Virus record (IMG/VR): IMGVR_UViG_3300042566_000137
Coordinates: 1-40,901 of that record
DNA: 40,901 bases
Source of the DNA: a virus
Direction: 5' to 3' (one strand)
A program made the position numbers and the translations under genes. Position 1 is the stretch's first letter, and each line of letters begins with the position of its first letter. Of this stretch, positions 4,878 through 40,901 are shown piece after piece. The notes under the pieces are model-generated. The model was given only the letters and a program-made list of their open reading frames with translations. It searched no databases and was not told the DNA's origin.

Positions 4878-5702
4878 TTACCGAACTCGTCCTTCTGCGT
4901 AGGCATTGAGGATTTCATCTGCCATACTTTCATAACGATTCGGATCTTGCATTCTTAAGCGAATTAAGTCTGCACGACGATATACTGGTTTACCTGTTTC
5001 CCCTGTACCACCTTGCTGCACAGCTGCTGCTTTGAGTGCTTTACTGCGACCTTCACTATCTGTCTTCTTCAGTGCTTCATCTGCAGCTTTAGAGGTTTCC
5101 TCTTTTTGCTGCCTTAAACCACGCAACGACTTGTAGTTGTCGAGTAGTTCTAAAGCTGAATCAACATCATAGTTATTAGCATCAGCATACAAACGCTGCC
5201 TTGCCCGTGAACTTGCAATCCATTGTTGAAAGTCTTCGGACTGTGCTACACTTACAAAATCAGGATGAGTCTTTTCAATTGATTCAAGAGCTGAACGCTG
5301 AGCTTGAACTACTTGTTGCTCTTGCAGCTGTCGTAGAACTGGATTAGACTCTAGTGCCTGGTTAATTGCCTTTTGGGGATCTTCAAACCAATCAATCTCT
5401 TGTGCTGGTTCAGGCTGCTTGTCGTGCTTGGTTTCGAGTTGTTGCCTTAGAAGCGAGTCAGCTAACTTCCGTACTTCACCTACCTCTTGTGCCTGACGAC
5501 CGATAAGCTTTTCAGCTTCTTGGTGCATACGAACAATCTCATCAAGAGATTTATTCTTATACTTTTCAGGTACTTCAACTTCGTTAGCAATCTCTTCAGG
5601 TTGTGCTGATTCAGCGTCTGGGATTGTACTTCCTTGTTGGTTTAAGTCGGTTAAAGCTTCGTTAGATTCTTCTTCTTGCAGTTCGATAAAATTAGCAGCC
5701 AT
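4878..5702 (-). CDS. Capsid scaffolding protein
   Basis: A 274-residue, highly charged protein rich in Glu, Gln and Lys, predicted mostly helical with coiled-coil character (KNKSLDEIVRMHQEAEKLIGRQAQEVGEVRKLADSL is one such region). The acidic N-terminus (MAANFIELQEEESNEAL) and the position between portal and coat genes match podovirus scaffolds, which guide procapsid assembly and then leave the head. The C-terminus is basic (RRADLIRLRMQDPNRYESMADE), where coat binding often lies. It has no enzymatic motif. Confidence 0.85.
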   Translation of the reverse strand: MAANFIELQEEESNEALTDLNQQGSTIPDAESAQPEEIANEVEVPEKYKNKSLDEIVRMHQEAEKLIGRQAQEVGEVRKLADSLLRQQLETKHDKQPEPAQEIDWFEDPQKAINQALESNPVLRQLQEQQVVQAQRSALESIEKTHPDFVSVAQSEDFQQWIASSRARQRLYADANNYDVDSALELLDNYKSLRGLRQQKEETSKAADEALKKTDSEGRSKALKAAAVQQGGTGETGKPVYRRADLIRLRMQDPNRYESMADEILNAYAEGRVR

Positions 5703-5765
5703 ATATACTCCTGTCGCAATGCGATTTTAGGATAATTAAAAATAGCTCGGTGATCAAGAGTTCAC

Positions 5766-6011
5766 TTATGAGCCGTGATTTGCATTTGTTTTCCTCTCCA
5801 CAGCCAGCTTCTCAGCTCTCTGTCTAGCCCACTTCGATGTAGCTGAAGGGTGGTCGCCACTGATTGGATCTAAATAGATCCTCGGTGGGGTGAGGATACG
5901 GGTAGCAGTCCCGTCACATACGCTACACTGAACTTCTTTTGTCTCAACATCTACAAAGGATTCAGTGATATGCGAATCTTTACACTTAAAGTCGTACATT
6001 CGTCTAGGCAT
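5766..6011 (-). CDS. FmdB-like zinc-ribbon protein
   Basis: This 81-residue protein begins MPRRMYDFKCKDSH and continues to VQCSVCDGTATRIL, the layout of FmdB-type zinc ribbons: a Tyr-Asp-Phe start, a first metal knuckle, a CxxC knuckle and a following TRI. The visible ligands are C10, H14, C29 and C32, so the usual first CxxC is replaced by C-x3-H. The second half is basic and lacks features I recognise. It overlaps the preceding gene by 8 bases. Such proteins are frequent in phage head operons; their role is not known. Confidence 0.7.
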   Translation of the reverse strand: MPRRMYDFKCKDSHITESFVDVETKEVQCSVCDGTATRILTPPRIYLDPISGDHPSATSKWARQRAEKLAVERKTNANHGS

Positions 6012-6249
6012 TATCTTCCTCTACTAGGAGCTGCTCATAAACTTCTGTACTAGACTCTCTTAAAGTCTTGATCCAGTTCATGATGGACAGTTCGCCCTTC
6101 TTGAAGTGGAGTTGTTGTTCTGTATCTAAGCCACCTATACGATCTGTGGCATCTATCATTACTTGGATGTCTTCTACTAGGTCTTTCCAACCCTGAGTCG
6201 ACATCATTGCAAATCTATTCTCGTAGTAATCCTGTAATTCACGATTCAT
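6004..6249 (-). CDS. Conserved phage protein between portal and scaffold (81 aa)
   Basis: A short helical, acidic protein (MNRELQDYYENRFAMMSTQG..., LVEDIQVMIDATDRI). Small proteins of this type commonly lie between portal and scaffold in related phages, but I do not know a function. It is the first gene after a strong - strand promoter at 6297-6325 and has a ribosome binding site (AAGGA) before ATG, so this promoter probably boosts this gene, the zinc-ribbon gene, scaffold and coat. Confidence 0.7.
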   Translation of the reverse strand: MNRELQDYYENRFAMMSTQGWKDLVEDIQVMIDATDRIGGLDTEQQLHFKKGELSIMNWIKTLRESSTEVYEQLLVEEDNA

Positions 6250-6296
6250 TGTAATCTTTTTCCTTGACTTTGGAGATTATTTGTGATATAGTAAAT

Positions 6297-6325
6297 ATTA
6301 TACCACAGTTTTACTCAAAAGTCAA
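6297..6325 (-). promoter_or_regulatory. Sigma70-type promoter, extended -10 (head operon)
   Basis: On the - strand TTGACT (6320-6325) is followed by a 17-bp spacer and TATAAT (6297-6302), preceded by TGTGG, giving an extended -10. AATAAAG lies just upstream of the -35 box, as at two other - strand promoters. Transcription would start near 6290, about 40 bases before the 6249 start codon. Confidence 0.85.
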
Positions 6326-6330
6326 GTACT

Positions 6331-8289
6331 TTATTGCATTTTTCTTTGCATTTGCATAGCAGCGATACGCTCATTGGAAGCAATATCAGCCTCTTTGAGG
6401 GCTAAATTAGCAATCTTCTCTGCTTTAGTGAACTCATCCATGCCTTGTGTGCTTTGTTGGGCTTTAAAGGCATTAATTTGCATCTCTACAGGCAATAACT
6501 GGGTTTCTACACCTGTTTGCTGTGCTTCAGCCTGTGCTTTAGCTGCTTCTGCTTGTACCTTCTGGAGATTAGCCATAGCTGTCTGCATAGCTATCTGTTG
6601 CATCTGCTCTTGCATAGGGTCTACAGGCTGCTGAGTCATCTCTTGAAGGGTAGCGATGATCTCTTCACGATTAGACATGCTAGAGGACGCTATAATGCCT
6701 TGTAGGAGTACTGGAGTAATAGGAGACTGAGCACCTAGGGTAGACATTAAGCCCATCATCTGCTGCTGTTCGTACTCACGAGCTACCATTCCCATAGTAG
6801 AAGTAGGGATAAAGTTAAAGTCTTGGACTGGATAACGCTCAGGATCAAACTGCATGAACCGCCAAGCAGCCTTATTAATGAACGGCATCAGGAAATCTTC
6901 TTGGAAGTTGATCAAGGTACGCTTGTTCTTCTTCATAAGCCCTGAGAGAGCCATAGAGAGTCCTGCACCGCTTGCCTCACCAGCAGCTACTTGACCTGGC
7001 ATTGACGCACTGTCGATCGTTCCTGTGGCTTGCAATAGCATTGATTGGAAGTTCTGTGCTGTTTGGAAACTCTGTGGATCAGTAACACCAAACTTGAATG
7101 GCATCATGATCTCGTTAGGGTTACCGTTAACCAGCATGTTCTTACCTGGACGTACTTCGTACTTAGCACCACGAGGAAGCCTTGTAGCATCCATCGCCAT
7201 CATAGGGGATGTGGTTAGAGCTAAGGAGTCTAGGTGGCTACGGATCTGAGCATCGATAGCCTTCTGCATATTGTAGCCCTTCTCAGCAGTACCACGACCC
7301 CAGAAACGACCTGGCATCGAGTCAGCTTGATAAGCAACAATAGGACGATCCTTCATCATGTAAGGGGACTCTTCAGCTTTGAGAAGCCACTGGTCATCCG
7401 CAATCACAACAATAGCTTCTACCAAGTTCTGGTAGTCTTGACCTTTAGAACCTTCAGGGAACAGGTCTACTACTTCGACTCCGTCCTCTTTATCGATGTT
7501 CTCAAGGTACTCACGAGGAACTAAACCGTAGTAGCGAACAACACGAATACGATCGTCTTGCTTGTGGGTTACTTCTTGTACTGGCTCTAGCTCCATGTTG
7601 GAGTAGCTAGGCATTACATTAACCTTACGATATGTGCCATCAACCATACCCTGTACGATGGTGTAGTAAGGGACATACTCTTCGATAGCTACACCAAGAG
7701 AGTCTTCTACGTCTGCTGCATTAGGGTCGATCAGGAAGTTACGAGGATTGACAGGGTGGAGTTGAACCATAAACTGCTTCTTCTCTTGTACACCAATCGC
7801 TGCCATCTGAGTTCCAGGAATGATCTCAGTAGCTGGAGACATCACTGTACGCTCTTCTACTGTAATCTCACCGATACCAGTACCATACAGTTCGCCTAGA
7901 AGGATAATGTTATCTAGGGCTTTCTTAACCTTACTTACCTTGAAGTCCTCATGCATCTGCTGACGCACTAAAGCAACATCAGCTGGGTTCGTATCTTGAC
8001 GGTCATCAACGATATCAAAGAACTCACCACGACCAAAGACTGCTTCAGATATCTCTGCTTGCTTGGACTCAATGGCTTGCTGTAGTGCGGGAGTGATTAA
8101 GCGACTACGCTCAGAGTCTCGTGTCTTATCGAGTGCATCCCAGATACCACGGAACAGACGCTCATACTCTTCCCACTTGTCTAGGTAGTTTACATCACGA
8201 TGATCTCGCCATGTATTGCAGTGGTCTACGATGAACGCAATTAAGTCGTTATCCGCATCAGTTTGTTTATCTTCTTTAAACTCTGCCAT
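6331..8289 (-). CDS. Portal (head-tail connector) protein
   Basis: A 652-residue protein that forms the ring through which DNA enters and leaves the head. It sits between the large terminase and scaffold genes, has the expected size for podovirus portals, and starts with an acidic N-terminus (MAEFKEDKQTDADNDLIAF). Regions such as SRLITPALQQAIESKQAEISEAVF and ILLGELYGTGIGEI are typical of this portal family. The last 130 residues are a Gln/Ala/Met-rich helical tail (QEQMQQIAMQTAMANLQKVQ...), plausibly the barrel or the crown inside the capsid. No frameshift or truncation is visible. Confidence 0.92.
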   Translation of the reverse strand: MAEFKEDKQTDADNDLIAFIVDHCNTWRDHRDVNYLDKWEEYERLFRGIWDALDKTRDSERSRLITPALQQAIESKQAEISEAVFGRGEFFDIVDDRQDTNPADVALVRQQMHEDFKVSKVKKALDNIILLGELYGTGIGEITVEERTVMSPATEIIPGTQMAAIGVQEKKQFMVQLHPVNPRNFLIDPNAADVEDSLGVAIEEYVPYYTIVQGMVDGTYRKVNVMPSYSNMELEPVQEVTHKQDDRIRVVRYYGLVPREYLENIDKEDGVEVVDLFPEGSKGQDYQNLVEAIVVIADDQWLLKAEESPYMMKDRPIVAYQADSMPGRFWGRGTAEKGYNMQKAIDAQIRSHLDSLALTTSPMMAMDATRLPRGAKYEVRPGKNMLVNGNPNEIMMPFKFGVTDPQSFQTAQNFQSMLLQATGTIDSASMPGQVAAGEASGAGLSMALSGLMKKNKRTLINFQEDFLMPFINKAAWRFMQFDPERYPVQDFNFIPTSTMGMVAREYEQQQMMGLMSTLGAQSPITPVLLQGIIASSSMSNREEIIATLQEMTQQPVDPMQEQMQQIAMQTAMANLQKVQAEAAKAQAEAQQTGVETQLLPVEMQINAFKAQQSTQGMDEFTKAEKIANLALKEADIASNERIAAMQMQRKMQ

Positions 8290-8300
8290 TTGGTTTCCTA

Positions 8301-9554
8301 TTAATAGCCAGCAATAAAATCAATTGGTTCATAGTCATCTTCACCGTCATCCATGAAGTAGGTAGTTACAGCGAGTTGATCAACGTAGCTTAAAGCATCG
8401 ATCAAGTCATCGTGTACTTGGTTGGTAGGGAACATCAAGAGCTGATCTACGAACTCTTTCCAGTCCTCATCCTCATTCAGGATTACCTTACCGTGTTCAA
8501 AGCGTCCCTGCAATGCCCAGACGATACGCTCTGTTTTATTCTTACCACCGTGCGTTAAGTCTTGAATGGTAGCGTAGGTGTTGTTAGACCTCATCAGATC
8601 GCTTAGATAGGGCAACACAGCGTTTCTAACTGTGCCTCGCTCCATTCCTACACCGATAGGTTGAAACTCCTTGATGTTCTTTAAAATCCTTGCAGCGCAG
8701 TCCTTTACATCCCACCTGCCATGCTCAATCTTTTTTACAAACCAAACACCATCATCTGTGACCTTAACCACAGCAATTGCAGACTCATCTAACTTCTTCT
8801 TACGAGACTCTGAATAGTTGGTATTAGTGAATCCCGCTAAGTCGATTGCCAGGTAGTATACCCCATCGCTTGGTTCTTCACCATACTCAATCCATTGTTC
8901 TTTGAATAAGTCTGTTCCTGCATTATCGAAAGAAGCTTCATACTCTTGCTTGAATGAGAAGCTACTTAATGTCTTTCTTGCACCCTCGATCTCTTTAGGA
9001 TCAATCAGTGGGTTATCTTTAGTAGTGAAGTGCCAAGACTTCCACTCTTCATCTTCATCTGTAAGACCAAGGTTGTACATATCGTAGAACCAGTTCCTAC
9101 CCTTTGGAGTTCCAATGAACAGAGCAGAACCCTTCTTATCTGAAAGAGAAGCTCTTAAGACCTTCTCCCAAGTATCTGGTTTTATGTCAGCTACCTCGTC
9201 TAATACTAGGTATGTTAAGCTGACCCCTCGAAGGGTATCTGGTCTATCAGCACCTCGAACATATATCTTAGCACCATTAATCAAAGTGATATCCATATTA
9301 TTAACATGGCTACTCTGAATCACTTCTCTTCCTAAATCCATCAGGACATCCCAGATAATCTGTCTAGCTTGTCCTTGAGTAGGAGCAACATACATTACAG
9401 CAGAACCTTGCGGGCAACGTAGTCCCTCTACTAATAATGCTACAGCAGATAATCTTGATTTACCACATCGTCGTCCAGCAACAATAACTTTAAACCTGGT
9501 CTTATCTTGGAATACTTCTTTCTGCCAAGGTAGTAACTCGAAACTGAGGTTCAT
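8301..9554 (-). CDS. Terminase large subunit
   Basis: The DNA-packaging motor ATPase and nuclease, 417 residues. Visible motifs are the Walker A region AGRRCGKSR at about residues 26-34, the Walker B LTYLVLDE with D119/E120, the coupling motif GTPKG near 148-152, and the RuvC-like nuclease start YLAIDLAG with D238, followed by HDDLIDALSYV near the C-terminus supplying further acidic ligands. It overlaps the preceding gene by 4 bases (ATGA). The order with portal, scaffold and coat is the usual one. Confidence 0.95.
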   Translation of the reverse strand: MNLSFELLPWQKEVFQDKTRFKVIVAGRRCGKSRLSAVALLVEGLRCPQGSAVMYVAPTQGQARQIIWDVLMDLGREVIQSSHVNNMDITLINGAKIYVRGADRPDTLRGVSLTYLVLDEVADIKPDTWEKVLRASLSDKKGSALFIGTPKGRNWFYDMYNLGLTDEDEEWKSWHFTTKDNPLIDPKEIEGARKTLSSFSFKQEYEASFDNAGTDLFKEQWIEYGEEPSDGVYYLAIDLAGFTNTNYSESRKKKLDESAIAVVKVTDDGVWFVKKIEHGRWDVKDCAARILKNIKEFQPIGVGMERGTVRNAVLPYLSDLMRSNNTYATIQDLTHGGKNKTERIVWALQGRFEHGKVILNEDEDWKEFVDQLLMFPTNQVHDDLIDALSYVDQLAVTTYFMDDGEDDYEPIDFIAGY

Positions 9555-10018
9555 TTATATGAATCCTCTTCATTATCTACCTCTTGATAATCTACAATCT
9601 CAGCTTCGCAGTAACCTGATTCTGTTACTGCATCAATCTCTTCTATTGCTTCTACTTTAGTTTCACCTAATCCAGTAATATTAATAGTTACTGCATTACG
9701 TTGTCCTTTAGCATCTTTCTCAAATAATGATGTGGGTAGTAATCTATCCATACACATCTTGAGGCAAGCTACTTGATCTTTATCGTCATCATCTAAAGCC
9801 TTACGGAGTACAGTATCAATTACTTTCGTACCACTCGTTGATAATAATCTAGCTTTAAACTCTTGGATTCGTCCTGCGTCACCTAATGGTCTGCCTACCT
9901 TACCTGGTCTCTTCTTGCTCTGCACAAGCGACTTAGGAGGACGACCTCTCCTACGAGCAGGTGCTGGTTCTAAGACATCCACCTTAATAGGAGACAAATC
10001 CTTTAAATCTTGAGACAT
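9551..10018 (-). CDS. Putative terminase small subunit
   Basis: A 155-residue protein upstream of, and overlapping, the large terminase gene; this position suggests DNA recognition for packaging. The N-terminal third is very basic with two AT-hook-like motifs (RRRGRPPK and VGRPLG); the middle is helical (IQEFKARLLSTSGTKVIDTVLRKALDDDDKDQVACLKMCMDRLL) and the C-terminus acidic. ATG 10018 is chosen because AAAGGAT precedes it, although an in-frame TTG exists 30 bases upstream. I do not see a classic helix-turn-helix, so the call rests mainly on context. Confidence 0.65.
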   Translation of the reverse strand: MSQDLKDLSPIKVDVLEPAPARRRGRPPKSLVQSKKRPGKVGRPLGDAGRIQEFKARLLSTSGTKVIDTVLRKALDDDDKDQVACLKMCMDRLLPTSLFEKDAKGQRNAVTINITGLGETKVEAIEEIDAVTESGYCEAEIVDYQEVDNEEDSYK

Positions 10019-10077
10019 ATATCCTTTACCTGCTAACGCAGAGAACAATTAATAAATGAATTTCTACTAATTAGTTT

Positions 10078-10096
10078 ACTAAGTAGTCTTAAGTAG
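10078..10096. repeat. 19-bp repeat shared with the primase leader
   Basis: ACTAAGTAGTCTTAAGTAG occurs here and again, exactly and in the same orientation, at 14123-14141. Here it lies in the untranslated leader of the terminase transcript; there it lies in the leader of the primase-helicase transcript. It may bind a regulator; that is inference. Confidence 0.8.
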
Positions 10097-10153
10097 TTTT
10101 GGTTCTTTTTGTTTTTTACCTAGTTTGCTCTTAGTCTTCTTCTTAGTACAACT

Positions 10154-10182
10154 ATTATACCACAACTTCTTAGATTTGTCAA
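10154..10182 (-). promoter_or_regulatory. Sigma70-type promoter, extended -10 (terminase/late operon)
   Basis: On the - strand TTGACA (10177-10182), a 17-bp spacer and TATAAT (10154-10159), preceded by TTGTGG. AATAAAGC lies directly upstream of the -35 box. Transcription would start near 10147 and leave a leader of about 130 bases before the terminase start at 10018. It is the main candidate for the late structural promoter. Confidence 0.9.
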
Positions 10183-10195
10183 GCTTTATTTTACT

Positions 10196-10322
10196 TAGTT
10201 CCCTACGGAGCACGTCTTAGGGGTATAGGGAAGCTGAGTTATGAACCCCTCTATAGGGAGACTATGCGGGTCTGGTGAGCAGAGCTAGAGCGTATTCCGC
10301 AGCTATGACTCTGTCCCCTTTT
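10196..10322. other. GC-rich structured island in the divergent control region
   Basis: This stretch is clearly richer in G and C than its AT-rich flanks. It holds a hairpin AGGGGT (10219-10224) / ACCCCT (10245-10250), a second dyad TGCGG (10265-10269) / CCGCA (10297-10301), and then CCCCTTTTATCTTCCTTTT, which could end a short + strand RNA. The 11-mer CTATAGGGAGA at 10251-10261 matches the initiation end of the T7 promoter. No reading frame is supported. Candidates are a small RNA, a packaging site beside the terminase genes, or a replication origin. Confidence 0.5.
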
Positions 10323-10516
10323 ATCTTCCTTTTAAATATAGACATCAGTAGTTAACATCTCTTAAGATAACTCATTGATTACATTGAACATATTGTCTAC
10401 TTAGCTACTGCCTAATTATTAAGCAATTATTGCCTATTTTTTAAGCAGTTGAATTCTACTTTTTAGGTGTTTCAGAGCCTGAGTCAGAAATCAGAACAGC
10501 TACTGACCCCTCCCCC

Positions 10517-10649
10517 ATAGTCAAAAACTATCAAGATTAAAAAGTCAATAGATTTTAGCTATTACTAGGTCATTTTATGAGCTTGCGATAGTTTAAAGCT
10601 ATCACTAACCAGGTCTTGATAGTTAAAAGCTATGATAGAGAAAAACTAT
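10517..10649. repeat. Five palindromic ATAG-N7-CTAT elements
   Basis: Copies start at 10517, 10548, 10588, 10619 and 10635. All have exactly seven AT-rich bases between the arms (TCAAAAA, ATTTTAG, TTTAAAG, TTAAAAG, AGAAAAA). Start-to-start distances are 31, 40, 31 and 16 bp, near 3, 4, 3 and 1.5 helical turns. The region has no supported gene. An operator array or replication-origin iterons are the likely readings. Confidence 0.85.
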
Positions 10650-10680
10650 TGAGTACTAGATATCGATAGAAATAATTGTA

Positions 10681-10709
10681 TTGACAGAAATGAATAAGGA
10701 TGGTAGAGA
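10681..10709 (+). promoter_or_regulatory. Possible weak + strand promoter
   Basis: TTGACA (10681-10686) is followed after 17 bp by TAGAGA (10704-10709), preceded by TGG as in the phage's extended -10 promoters. The -10 box matches only 3 of 6 positions. It lies just past the ATAG-N7-CTAT array, which makes it a possible regulated early promoter. Confidence 0.3.
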
Positions 10710-10928
10710 CACTCTGAAGCACTCTAGACACTAACCAGCATACACAAGTAAACATCCACTAACCTATAAACTAACCAGCAATTGCCTATAAATTAAGCAA
10801 TACTGTTTAAAACGATTTTAAGGGCATTTATAGCCGTTTTAGTCTAATCTGATACCTTACTATCAACTGCTATACGATCTCGATTTATTAGGGTAAACCC
10901 TTAAGGGAAAACACCTATAAAATAATTG

Positions 10929-10957
10929 TTGACAATTGGAATAAATAGGCATATAGT
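10929..10957 (+). promoter_or_regulatory. Early + strand promoter
   Basis: TTGACA (10929-10934), a 17-bp spacer and TATAGT (10952-10957), with an AT-rich stretch upstream that could act as an UP element. Transcription would begin near 10964, about 38 bases before the first + strand gene at 11002. This is the best candidate for the early promoter. Confidence 0.88.
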
Positions 10958-11001
10958 TATTACATGCAGTAAAATTTAAACACTAAATAGGAATAGATAA
11001 A

Positions 11002-11151
11002 ATGAATAAATTACTAGTAGCATTTAAAACAGCACCAACAGAAGCCAATAGAATTAAATTACAAAAGTATATTAGTAAACATATGATGGCTATATGTTGC
11101 GCTCCACTAGAAGATCAACAGTATTTAAAAGCAAACGGATTTAATATTTAA
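11002..11151 (+). CDS. Small early protein (49 aa)
   Basis: The first gene after the early promoter. It begins MNKLLVAFKTAPTEANRIKLQKYI, is helical and basic, and ends LKANGFNI. AGGA precedes the ATG by about 10 bases. I do not recognise a family with confidence. The position is where phages of this type place host-takeover or anti-defence micro-proteins; no function can be assigned from the sequence. Confidence 0.7.
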   Translation: MNKLLVAFKTAPTEANRIKLQKYISKHMMAICCAPLEDQQYLKANGFNI

Positions 11152-11626: not shown

Positions 11627-12268
11627 ATGATCAAGTTAAGTAAAACAAGTAAACTCGACGGCATTATGTCATGGTCTCTACAGGCAATTGATACATGCCC
11701 AGGCAGTAGTGATGGTAATGGCGGGTTAGTACCAGCATGCCAGGGATGTTATGCCACTACAGGGAATTATAGGTTTGCCAATGTAAAGAAGCCCAGGGAA
11801 TTTAATCGTGATGACTGGAAGCGGGATTCATGGGTTATGGATATGATCCAGGCTCTAGAGAATTCCAGATACTTTAGATGGTTTGATAGTGGTGATATGT
11901 ATGATCTAAAACTAGCGGAGAAAATCCGTAAGGTAATGTTACATACACCATGGGTTAGTCACTGGTTACCAACTAGAATGCATAAATTCCCTAAATTTAA
12001 AAGGGTTATTAGTGAGATGGAATTATTGTCTAATGTAGTAGTGCGCTACTCTAGCGATAGTGTTAATGGTGAAATCATTCCAGGGCAAACCACTAGCACC
12101 ATATTCAGTGGTACAGTACCAGCTGGTGCAGTAGAGTGCCAAGCTTACCAGCATGAAGGCAAGTGCAATGGATGCAGGGCTTGCTATTCTAAAGACGTGC
12201 CAGTCATTGCGTATAAAGCGCATGGGGTTAAGATGGCTAAAGTAATCAAGATTCAATCAATCAAATAA
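11627..12268 (+). CDS. Cys-rich GP88-like phage protein (213 aa)
   Basis: The protein contains WSLQAIDTCPGSSDGNG, then PACQGCYATTGNYRF, and a C-terminal cluster VECQAYQHEGKCNGCRACYSKDVPVIAYKAHG. This layout, a TCPG motif followed by CxxCYA and a late Cys cluster, resembles the phage GP88 (gene product 88) family of unknown function. The spacing of Cys residues suggests a metal or iron-sulphur site. A strong ribosome binding site (AAGGGAG) precedes ATG 11627. It is the first sizeable early gene, so a role in remodelling host metabolism or defence is conceivable, but that is inference. Confidence 0.65.
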   Translation: MIKLSKTSKLDGIMSWSLQAIDTCPGSSDGNGGLVPACQGCYATTGNYRFANVKKPREFNRDDWKRDSWVMDMIQALENSRYFRWFDSGDMYDLKLAEKIRKVMLHTPWVSHWLPTRMHKFPKFKRVISEMELLSNVVVRYSSDSVNGEIIPGQTTSTIFSGTVPAGAVECQAYQHEGKCNGCRACYSKDVPVIAYKAHGVKMAKVIKIQSIK

Positions 12269-12282
12269 TTGGAGGGTTTACA

Positions 12283-12588
12283 ATGAAGCGAATGACATTA
12301 GATTATTATCAAGATCCAGGGCATGGATGGGTCAAAATTGGATTACAAACCCTGGTTGATCTAGGGATACATGATAAGATTAGTAGCTATTCATATGTAC
12401 GATTAAACCATGCATATCTAGAAGAAGATTGTGATCTAGGGTTATTGTTTAAGGTATGTGACGCTAAGGGTATCAAGATATCGCTAAGGGATCATCATAC
12501 TAATAAACAATCTAAGATTAGATCATATCAAAATTATAAACAATATAATTCAGATCATAATGCATTACTTAACCTATGGAATACTTAA
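12283..12588 (+). CDS. Conserved hypothetical protein with YYQDPGHGW motif (101 aa)
   Basis: It begins MKRMTLDYYQDPGHGWVKIGLQ; this YYQDPGHGW opening recurs in small phage and bacterial proteins without known function. The remainder is mixed alpha/beta with a basic C-terminal part (DHHTNKQSKIRSYQNYKQY). GGAGGG precedes the ATG. Its stop codon lies inside a 16-bp tandem repeat that also contains the next gene's start. Confidence 0.7.
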   Translation: MKRMTLDYYQDPGHGWVKIGLQTLVDLGIHDKISSYSYVRLNHAYLEEDCDLGLLFKVCDAKGIKISLRDHHTNKQSKIRSYQNYKQYNSDHNALLNLWNT

Positions 12589-23533: not shown

Positions 23534-23707
23534 GTGTTAACGCTGACAGTGCCTGAGTTAAAAGAGCGACTAAAGCGTTTAGATGAGGTATCTCTTCTGG
23601 AGTTATTAAACATATCTTCAGAAGAGCTTGTCGATACTTTTAGCGATAACATTGAAAACAATTATGAGAGCCTCTGCAAAGAGGTAGACTGGGAAGAGAC
23701 TGAATGA
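23534..23707 (+). CDS. Small conserved phage protein before the reductase (57 aa)
   Basis: A GTG-started frame: LTLTVPELKERLKRLDEVSL continues LELLNISSEELVDTF and ends VDWEETE. The pattern of a helix with LKERLKRLDE then LLELLNISSE(E/D)L is recurrent in small phage proteins. The stop overlaps the reductase ATG (ATGA), so the two are probably translated together. The function is unknown. Confidence 0.7.
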   Translation: MLTLTVPELKERLKRLDEVSLLELLNISSEELVDTFSDNIENNYESLCKEVDWEETE

Positions 23708-25614
23708 CCAACAAATATCAAATGACACCTTACAATACCTTTATTGCGAAGAGCCGTTACTCACGGTTTCTCGATGATAAGAATCGTCGTGAGCACTGGG
23801 GTGAAACTGTAGCACGTTACTTCGATTTCATGGAGAAGCACTTAGCTACTAAGCAGAACTACAAGCTGACTCCTGAGCTACGCAGTGAGCTACAAGAAGC
23901 AGTAACAAGCCTGGATGTAGTACCTTCTATGAGAGCAGTGATGACTGCTGGTACTGCATTAGATCGTCAGAATGTGGCTGCATTTAACTGTTCGTACTTA
24001 CCTATCGATGACCCTAAAGCATTCGATGAGGCAATGTATATCCTATTGTGTGGTACTGGTGTTGGATTCTCTGTGGAGCAGAAGTATGTTACTCAATTAC
24101 CTGAAGTTCCAGATCAGTTGTTTCCTAGTCAGACTTCTATTATGGTGTCGGATAGTAAAGAAGGGTGGGCGAAATCACTTCGACAACTCATCGCTCTTCT
24201 ATACTCTGGCGAGATTCCAAAGTATGACGTGTCGAAAGTCCGACCTGCGGGGGCTAGGCTTAAGACTTTTGGCGGCAGAGCCTCTGGAGCACAGCCACTG
24301 GAAGACCTATTCAAGTTTGTTATTAGTAAGTTCAAGACAGCAGCTGGACGAAAGCTCAGTTCGCTGGAGTGTCATGACATTCTATGCAAGATCGGGGAAG
24401 TTGTTGTGGTGGGAGGAGTGCGTCGTTCCGCTATGATTAGCTTGTCTGATTTGACAGACGATAAGATGGCACATGCTAAGGCAGGTAACTGGTGGGATGG
24501 ACAAGGGCAACGAGCATTAGCTAACAACTCAGCTACATATGAAGAGACCCCAGCAATTGGTCAGTTCATGCGTGAGTGGACTAGCATTTATGAATCACAC
24601 TCTGGTGAGCGTGGTATCTTTAATCGTGAAGCTAGTCAGAAGCAAGCTGCTAAGAATGGTCGTCGTGATGCAAGCTATGAGTTTGGTACTAATCCATGCT
24701 CAGAGATCATCCTGCGTCCATATCAGTTCTGTAACTTGTCTTCTTGTATCATCCGCAGTACAGACACTGAAGCAGATATCTTGAACAAGGTTCGTTTAGC
24801 TACTATCTTGGGTACATTCCAAGCATCGTTAACTAACTTCCCTTACCTTCGTAAGATATGGCAGAAGAATACAGAAGAGGAAGCTTTATTAGGTGTATCG
24901 ATGACAGGTATCTTGGACAATCATTTACTGAATGACCCAGATGATAAGGAATTACCAGGACTATTGGAGAAACTACGAGATGCTGCTGTTGCTACTAACG
25001 CTGAATTTGCTGCTGCTATTGGAATCAATCAGAGTGTTGCGGTTACGGCTATTAAGCCCGAAGGAACTGTATCACAACTCTGTTCTACCGCCTCTGGCAT
25101 TCATCCTCAGCATAGTCAGTATTACATTCGTCGTGTACGAGCTGATAACAAAGACCCACTGACACAGTTCATGCTGAAGTCAGGGTTTATTGGTGAGCCT
25201 TGTGTGATGAAGCCTGAGTCTACAACAGTATTTAGTTTCCCTGTTGCAGTAGCTGAAGGTGCTTTACTTCGTGAGGACTTGACTGCTGTTGAGCACTTGC
25301 GATTGTGGTTGATTTACCAGCGTCACTACTGTGAGCACAAGCCATCAGTCACTATCTCTGTCTTAGAGAAGGAGTGGATGGAAGTAGGGGCATGGGTGTA
25401 CAAGCACTTCGATGAGGTTACTGGTGTGTCTTTCCTGCCAATGGATGGAGGAACATATCGACAAGCACCGTATGAAGAGTGTACTGAAGAGGATTACAAG
25501 AAGTTACTTGCTCAACAACCTACTGGTATTGATTGGGATAACTTCCAGGAGTATGACGATAATGTCGAAGGAGCGCAGATGCTAAGCTGCACAGCTGGAG
25601 GATGTACGATATGA
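23704..25614 (+). CDS. nrdJ: Class II (adenosylcobalamin-dependent) ribonucleoside-triphosphate reductase
   Basis: Makes deoxynucleotides for phage DNA in the cytoplasm using vitamin B12. The 636-residue protein resembles the monomeric triphosphate reductase: N-terminal TPYNTFIAKSRYSRFLDD, active-site C96 (NVAAFNCSYL), the loop GTNPCSEI with radical C332 and E334, partner C343 (QFCNLSS), and the C-terminal redox pair C629 and C634 (LSCTAGGCTI; C-x4-C). Class II enzymes need no separate radical-generating subunit, so one gene suffices, but the host or medium must supply cobalamin. It overlaps its neighbours by 4 bases on both sides. Confidence 0.94.
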   Translation: MTNKYQMTPYNTFIAKSRYSRFLDDKNRREHWGETVARYFDFMEKHLATKQNYKLTPELRSELQEAVTSLDVVPSMRAVMTAGTALDRQNVAAFNCSYLPIDDPKAFDEAMYILLCGTGVGFSVEQKYVTQLPEVPDQLFPSQTSIMVSDSKEGWAKSLRQLIALLYSGEIPKYDVSKVRPAGARLKTFGGRASGAQPLEDLFKFVISKFKTAAGRKLSSLECHDILCKIGEVVVVGGVRRSAMISLSDLTDDKMAHAKAGNWWDGQGQRALANNSATYEETPAIGQFMREWTSIYESHSGERGIFNREASQKQAAKNGRRDASYEFGTNPCSEIILRPYQFCNLSSCIIRSTDTEADILNKVRLATILGTFQASLTNFPYLRKIWQKNTEEEALLGVSMTGILDNHLLNDPDDKELPGLLEKLRDAAVATNAEFAAAIGINQSVAVTAIKPEGTVSQLCSTASGIHPQHSQYYIRRVRADNKDPLTQFMLKSGFIGEPCVMKPESTTVFSFPVAVAEGALLREDLTAVEHLRLWLIYQRHYCEHKPSVTISVLEKEWMEVGAWVYKHFDEVTGVSFLPMDGGTYRQAPYEECTEEDYKKLLAQQPTGIDWDNFQEYDDNVEGAQMLSCTAGGCTI

Positions 25615-40528: not shown

Positions 40529-40901
40529 TTACAAGATAACCCAGCGACTGTTTGACGGTACAGTTACGGTAACACCAGAAGCGATTGTTAAAGCTCCTAC
40601 AGAGTGTGCGTTATTACCTGCAGTGATGGAGTAGCTGGTTGAGATGGTGTTGCTGTGTTCGTATAAACCTTTAGTGGTTTTGTTTGCATCCGTATCTAAA
40701 GGAGACCAAGAAGCAGTAGTACCGTCAGTGGTTAAGTATTCTCCTGCGTTACCAGTCTGAGAAGGTAAAGCATCAACATTAGCCCATGATGTAGCTGTAC
40801 CATTGGTAGTTAAGAACTTACCAGAGTTACCTGTTTGACTTGGTGTGTAGCTTGCTGCTAATGCTTCAGAAGCAGCAGCATTGGTTGCTGAGGTTGCTGC
40901 A
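40529..40901 (-). CDS. Tail fibre protein, C-terminal part (cut by contig end)
   Basis: The frame is open at base 40901 and stops at 40529-40531. The first 42 codons (40775-40901) are identical in DNA to 2841-2967; the last 81 differ but keep the same plan: a repeated SQTGN(A/S)G(E/K)(Y/F)LTT segment and an end IASGVTVTVPSNSRWVIL like the copy's SAQRWIIL. Joined at the repeat to the N-terminal part 2841-3791, it would form an intact in-frame fibre of 398 residues. Confidence 0.88.
   Translation of the reverse strand, partial: AATSATNAAASEALAASYTPSQTGNSGKFLTTNGTATSWANVDALPSQTGNAGEYLTTDGTTASWSPLDTDANKTTKGLYEHSNTISTSYSITAGNNAHSVGALTIASGVTVTVPSNSRWVIL
40775..40901. repeat. 127-bp exact direct repeat, terminal copy
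   Basis: Identical to 2841-2967 and ending at the last base of the window. See the internal copy. It indicates that the contig's right end should join onto base 2968, not onto base 1. Confidence 0.97.

Follow-up and report, generated by a model that had tools for sequence, protein, structure and literature searches.

Several described systems are built on short repeated DNA sites next to control or packaging genes. In origins of the iteron/DnaA/IHF kind, such as RK2 oriV, pSC101 and P1 oriR, a plasmid Rep protein binds direct repeats called iterons. The cosB region of phage lambda, located before nu1, contains the IHF site I1 and the R sites, which are non-palindromic and bound by TerS, and the lambdoid operators OL and OR consist of 17-bp imperfect dyads arranged in tandem in a divergent control region. 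Here, we describe tandem 17-bp palindromic sites in an IMG/VR virus record of 40,901 bp, which was analysed as a whole and is referred to as the window.

The locus resembles the iteron/DnaA/IHF plasmid origins in its 17-bp sites, their period of about 22 bp, an IHF-like site and an A/T-rich region, as well as in the DnaA boxes present in distant relatives. Unlike iterons, the window sites are palindromic, and a Pfam search of 41 window ORFs recognised no initiator gene and no Rep domain. As in lambda cosB, tandem repeats and an IHF-like site are found near terS, with the window sites next to this gene at a distance of ~390 bp before it, and contig ends occur near the sites; however, the sites are palindromic and near-identical TerS proteins are found with or without them. 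The 17-bp imperfect dyads in tandem and the divergent control region also recall OL and OR, but the window sites lie off the promoter matches, and the Pfam search recognised neither a CI/Cro-like gene nor any helix-turn-helix match among the 41 ORFs. Finally, phased DnaA boxes together with an IHF consensus, as in bacterial oriC, are present in the distant relatives L286 and L291, whereas the window itself has no DnaA box.

The sites reside in a noncoding region (10049-11001) between the leftward terminase genes and the rightward early genes. The leftward genes are terL (8301..9554, minus strand) and a putative terS (9551..10018, minus strand, with a presumed start codon at 10018), which carries AT-hook-like RGRP motifs and was assigned by its position before terL. 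The first small early ORF, of 49 aa, is located at 11002..11151 on the plus strand. PHROGs matches in the window included a primase-helicase, a DNA polymerase, a gp2.5-like ssDNA-binding protein, an exonuclease and a phosphoesterase, and the frame at 23704-25614 is read, from its sequence, as a ribonucleotide reductase. The frames at 11627 (g213) and 12592 matched PHROGs families of unknown function, and there was no PHROGs match for the putative terS or the reading frames at 12283 and 13410. The last 50 bases of the window (40852-40901) are repeated at ~2918-2967 inside a tail-fibre-like gene.

With 33% GC, compared to ~40-45% in most of the record, the noncoding region is A/T-rich, as in a DnaA/IHF-type origin. 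The GC-skew analysis proposed in the initial annotation as a test for replication start did give a minimum, or turn, at ~10.5 kb, but gene directions switch at the same point and account for the minimum equally well. Two strong sigma-70 promoter matches face outwards from the region: TTGACA-17-TATAAT (12/12) at 10154..10182 on the minus strand, toward terS, and TTGACA-17-TATAGT (11/12) at 10929..10957 on the plus strand, toward the early genes. Both are clear of the palindromes, the nearest site being ~230 bp from the leftward and ~130 bp from the rightward match, and the overlap of site and promoter typical of a lambdoid operator was not found in the window. The two-way transcription switch that had been suggested as one function of the region is thus not supported in the window.

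Exact copies of TGCCTA-N4-TTAAGCA are located at 10409..10425 (site 1, TGCCTAATTATTAAGCA), at 10431..10447 (site 2, TGCCTATTTTTTAAGCA, 22 bp after site 1) and at 10783..10799 (distal site 3, TGCCTATAAATTAAGCA), with no further copy in the record, which bears out the earlier description of three 17-bp copies, two of them forming a 22-bp pair. Searching for TGCYTA-N5-TARGCA gave 3 matches against 0.05 expected, a number reached in 0 of 100 dinucleotide shuffles. The element is a near-palindrome with an A/T centre rather than a directional element of two halves, since relatives carry both orientations (TGCCTA...TTAAGCA or its reverse complement). The supposed free AT spacers between two halves are this A/T centre, and across 57 distinct sites 270 of 285 central bases were A or T. 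A degenerate copy (AACCTATAAACTAACCA, 10761..10777) matching 9 of 12 consensus positions does precede site 3 by 22 bp, but outside the nearest relatives, among which L006 preserves it better (AACCTATAAACTAAGCA), this fourth copy can no longer be recognised, and the two pairs of the initial annotation are therefore better described as a pair plus a distal site.

Next to the pair, at 10368..10380 on the minus strand, is an IHF-consensus-like site (TAACTCATTGATT; its reverse complement AATCAATGAGTTA fits WATCAANNNNTTR), an element also expected of a DnaA/IHF-type origin. It is near-invariant: almost every close relative whose sequence spans this position has it. A conserved C-rich tract (CCCCTCCCCC) follows at 10507..10516, and the IHF-like site (TAA-N4-TTGATT) and this tract are found together in 92 loci at a spacing of 113-180 bp, mostly 136-140 bp. 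Five ATAG-N7-CTAT sites form a first array at 10517..10649 (5 matches vs 1.2 expected; 0 of 100 shuffles reach 5), and the pair and site 3 both lie outside this array, flanking it as had been noted. The ATAG-N7-CTAT sites recur in many relatives, several at 31-bp spacing, and also in some without TGCYTA sites. A similar sequence, GGTAGTTTAAAACTATAA, is located before terS in L309 instead of palindromes.

Among IMG/VR loci, 80 encode TerL at 83-100%. In those that cover the region and carry sites, the halves are kept, including those of site 1, while the centres differ, and the pair has a period of 20, 22 or 23 bp. The pair starts at a fixed offset of ~41 bp from the IHF-like site, and the position of the third site is variable. 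Some close relatives have a single palindrome or none, and since several lack any palindrome, the element is not essential. The conservation looked for in the initial annotation is consequently present, as elements kept with changing centres, though not in all relatives.

Across IMG/VR, tandem palindromes were found in 83 stretches, 54 with a period of 20 bp, 11 of 21 bp and 18 of 22 bp; the chance level rests on one control, a scrambled palindrome at 20 bp only, which was found in 0 stretches. Based on neighbouring proteins, we grouped the stretches by hand into ~17 phage groups (18 when close and distant window relatives are split). In most groups, terminase genes are at or near the cluster, mostly with the cluster on their 5' side. 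The cluster is directly before terS, with a gap of 10-60 bp, in F2, L107/L122 (with a Nu1-like TerS) and L148, and a few hundred bp before terS or terL in L085, L098, L137, L139 and the L153 group. It lies between terL and portal in L133, ~2-4 kb from terL in the L101, L084 and L143 types, and far from terL in the L119/L129 and L136 types. For F2, L139 and L148, where PHROGs did not match terS, TerS was assigned by position. Gene settings around the sites are divergent, co-directional or, as a variant in L161, convergent, and most records searched whole have a single cluster per phage record. In L090/L099 (one contig of 48,743 bp), each end has palindromes nearby, oppositely oriented and with flanks that match.

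Bacterial genomes provided very few matches. In the GTDB genomes (257 Gb), the 20-bp form occurred once, on an Oxalobacter contig in a prophage at the end of an integrase gene, and among 150 Oxalobacter-order genomes the form with a 1-8-bp gap was present in one, in the same prophage. A host regulon was rejected as an explanation: 12 of 60 Oxalobacter-order genomes contain TGCYTAWWWWWTARGCA, with 1-4 copies each except for one genome, in which one sequence is present 11 times. In G094, a genome of the same order, TGCCTAATTTTTAGGCA or its reverse complement occurs eleven times, in several cases where a contig begins. We also rejected a known plasmid origin, for which the candidate was the IncQ plasmid pPNAP08 with a single exact site ~200 bp from repeats resembling oriV iterons. 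At 5628-6459 of this plasmid (L388), an array of ATCCAA...TTGGAT-type palindromes and two copies of GTTTCACGTGAAAC adjoin the one TGCYTA site.

In several lineages, DnaA boxes stand beside or in place of the palindromes. Upstream of g213, perfect boxes number 24 in 105 kb across 80 related loci, compared to 1 in 287 kb elsewhere, and some are arranged in 11-, 22- or 44-bp steps; 19 of the g213 loci have palindromes only, 13 boxes only and 2 both. Within 300 bp of palindromes (75 loci, L084-L158), there are 40 boxes in 49 kb versus 4 in 562 kb. These 40 come from F9 (28, in seven loci resembling one phage type), from distant window relatives (11, in 7 of 10 loci) and from one F2 locus, so that only 3 of the 18 hand-assigned groups, one of them by a single box, have boxes at this distance and the other groups have none. 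Counted from the IHF-like site, L286 and L291 have boxes at +73 and +95, and the window instead has palindromes, at +41 and +63. In lineage F2, L363/L364 carry three boxes just before terS and L149/L155/L158 carry three palindromes there, and in Venkman, a cultured Methylophilales phage, boxes lie between degenerate copies. Near the sites of the window and of its close relatives, DnaA boxes are absent.

Lineage F2 also bears on the identity of the binding protein. Depending on the phage, the stretch preceding terS contains palindromes, a GTTGY...RCAAC motif or three DnaA boxes, or lacks all of them, and the TerS proteins of L155 (three sites) and L309 (no site) differ at 2 of 96 residues. TerS identity therefore does not predict the sites, and TerS is, judging from these proteins, an unlikely binder; unrelated groups carry unrelated TerS proteins. 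GTTGY-N6-RCAAC, a different palindrome, replaces the TGCYTA sites before terS in L317, L320, L336, L341, L383 and others. Comparing 17 genome sets by blastp, we found no protein family common to all carriers, the largest cluster being terminase-like. Pfam searches of ORF subsets gave one ParB_N in G005, one Cro/C1 type in G004 and no helix-turn-helix in G030. Neither the blastp comparison nor the Pfam searches of these ORFs turned up a phage-encoded candidate shared by the carriers, and with TerS unlikely as well, our guess is that the binder is a host protein. An Rfam search gave no match, and a literature search, with most subscription journals outside its coverage, returned terminase papers only (for background on cos and pac, see PMC9611059).

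Contig ends were mapped relative to the IHF-like site. In the window lineage, 8 of 24 mapped right-going contig starts are at +67 to +172, left-going ends are at -60, -52, -24, +12 and +22, and the interval from +22 to +67 is free of mapped ends. Both ends are at the control region in L083 (38,352 bp) and G188 (37,800 bp), and the contigs of L107, L122, L085, L117 and L139 start 11-151 bp before the sites. This hints at a genome terminus at the control-region spot, but assembly breaks would look alike, the same mapping has other start and end clusters, many contigs span the spot, and contig starts in F2 are not concentrated at the sites. Near the IHF-like site, the 68- and 59-kb contigs of L254 and L255 have long poly-A runs at their starts.

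Judged by sequence comparison, the palindromes most likely serve as protein-binding DNA. They recur in unrelated phages, usually beside DNA-packaging genes and in some among known replication-start signals, and so are probably docking sites for a replication-start or packaging protein. The reading that we rank first, tentatively and with somewhat less than even confidence, is that they are targets of a DNA-binding protein acting as a dimer, within a control region that resembles a replication origin and is positioned between a leftward late operon (terS, terL) and a rightward early operon. A dimeric protein would dock on the 17-bp palindromes between these operons and may act like a replication initiator or co-factor, a role proposed because DnaA boxes adjoin or replace the palindromes in distant relatives, often in 11- or 22-bp phase. 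The origin with initiator sites of the initial annotation gains support from the conserved IHF-consensus site, the 33% GC and the boxes of distant relatives; the lack of a box near the window sites counts against it. An origin-like role would account for the DnaA boxes and the IHF-like site, a packaging element for the terminase neighbourhood and the contig ends, and an operator for the dyads. Also against the origin-like reading, the terS-gap sites of other phages lie inside one-directional genes, which is the usual place of packaging sites or operators, and the palindromic form suits an operator equally well.

A packaging element, with the sites in the region where terminase starts or cuts and the linear genome ends, is a less probable explanation, for which the position at or near terminase genes in most unrelated groups, directly before the Nu1-like terS in L107/L122, and the gathered contig ends would argue. 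The unrelated TerS proteins across groups, the near-identical ones of L155 and L309, the doubts on contig ends described above and the DnaA boxes at the same place, which would be unexpected, count against it. Slightly less probable still is that the tandem palindromes are operators through which a regulator controls the terminase or late operon: near-perfect dyads repeated every 20-22 bp are a typical arrangement for repressors that bind cooperatively, sites fill the space just before terS in F2 and L107/L122, and the palindrome type is swapped among F2 relatives, but no strong promoter match overlaps a site in the window, the gene settings range from divergent to convergent, and no shared regulator gene was found by blastp or in Pfam searches of ORF subsets. 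The inner 15 bp, GCYTA-WWWWW-TARGC, fits what we take to be the loose Fis consensus and could act as a DNA bend next to IHF, whose presumed site is adjacent; Fis sites are nevertheless improbable, as the outer T and C, free in that consensus, are kept in most copies and the searched bacterial genomes contain almost no copies of the 17-mer. An RNA hairpin acting on terS mRNA is the least probable: the arms could pair, and exact F2 copies have T/G at the mismatch, a possible wobble pair, but both orientations are found, the C/A form, which disrupts the pair in one of the two strands, outnumbers every other form when distinct sites are counted (19 of 57), and the window sites are upstream of the leftward promoter match. 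The orientation and C/A counts disfavour it.

Extending beyond the window, it is conceivable, although we consider it rather doubtful, that tandem TGCYTA-N5-TARGCA sites constitute a previously undescribed DNA module at terminase or origin control regions of many unrelated phages, interchangeable with DnaA boxes and read by one common, probably host, protein with few or no such sites in its own genome. If unrelated phages keep arriving at one 17-bp palindrome next to their packaging genes, it must be read by a protein common to them. Identifying this binder would reveal how replication begins, or how DNA is selected for packaging, in phages that lack a recognisable initiator gene, and would provide a sequence flag for such control regions in metagenomes.
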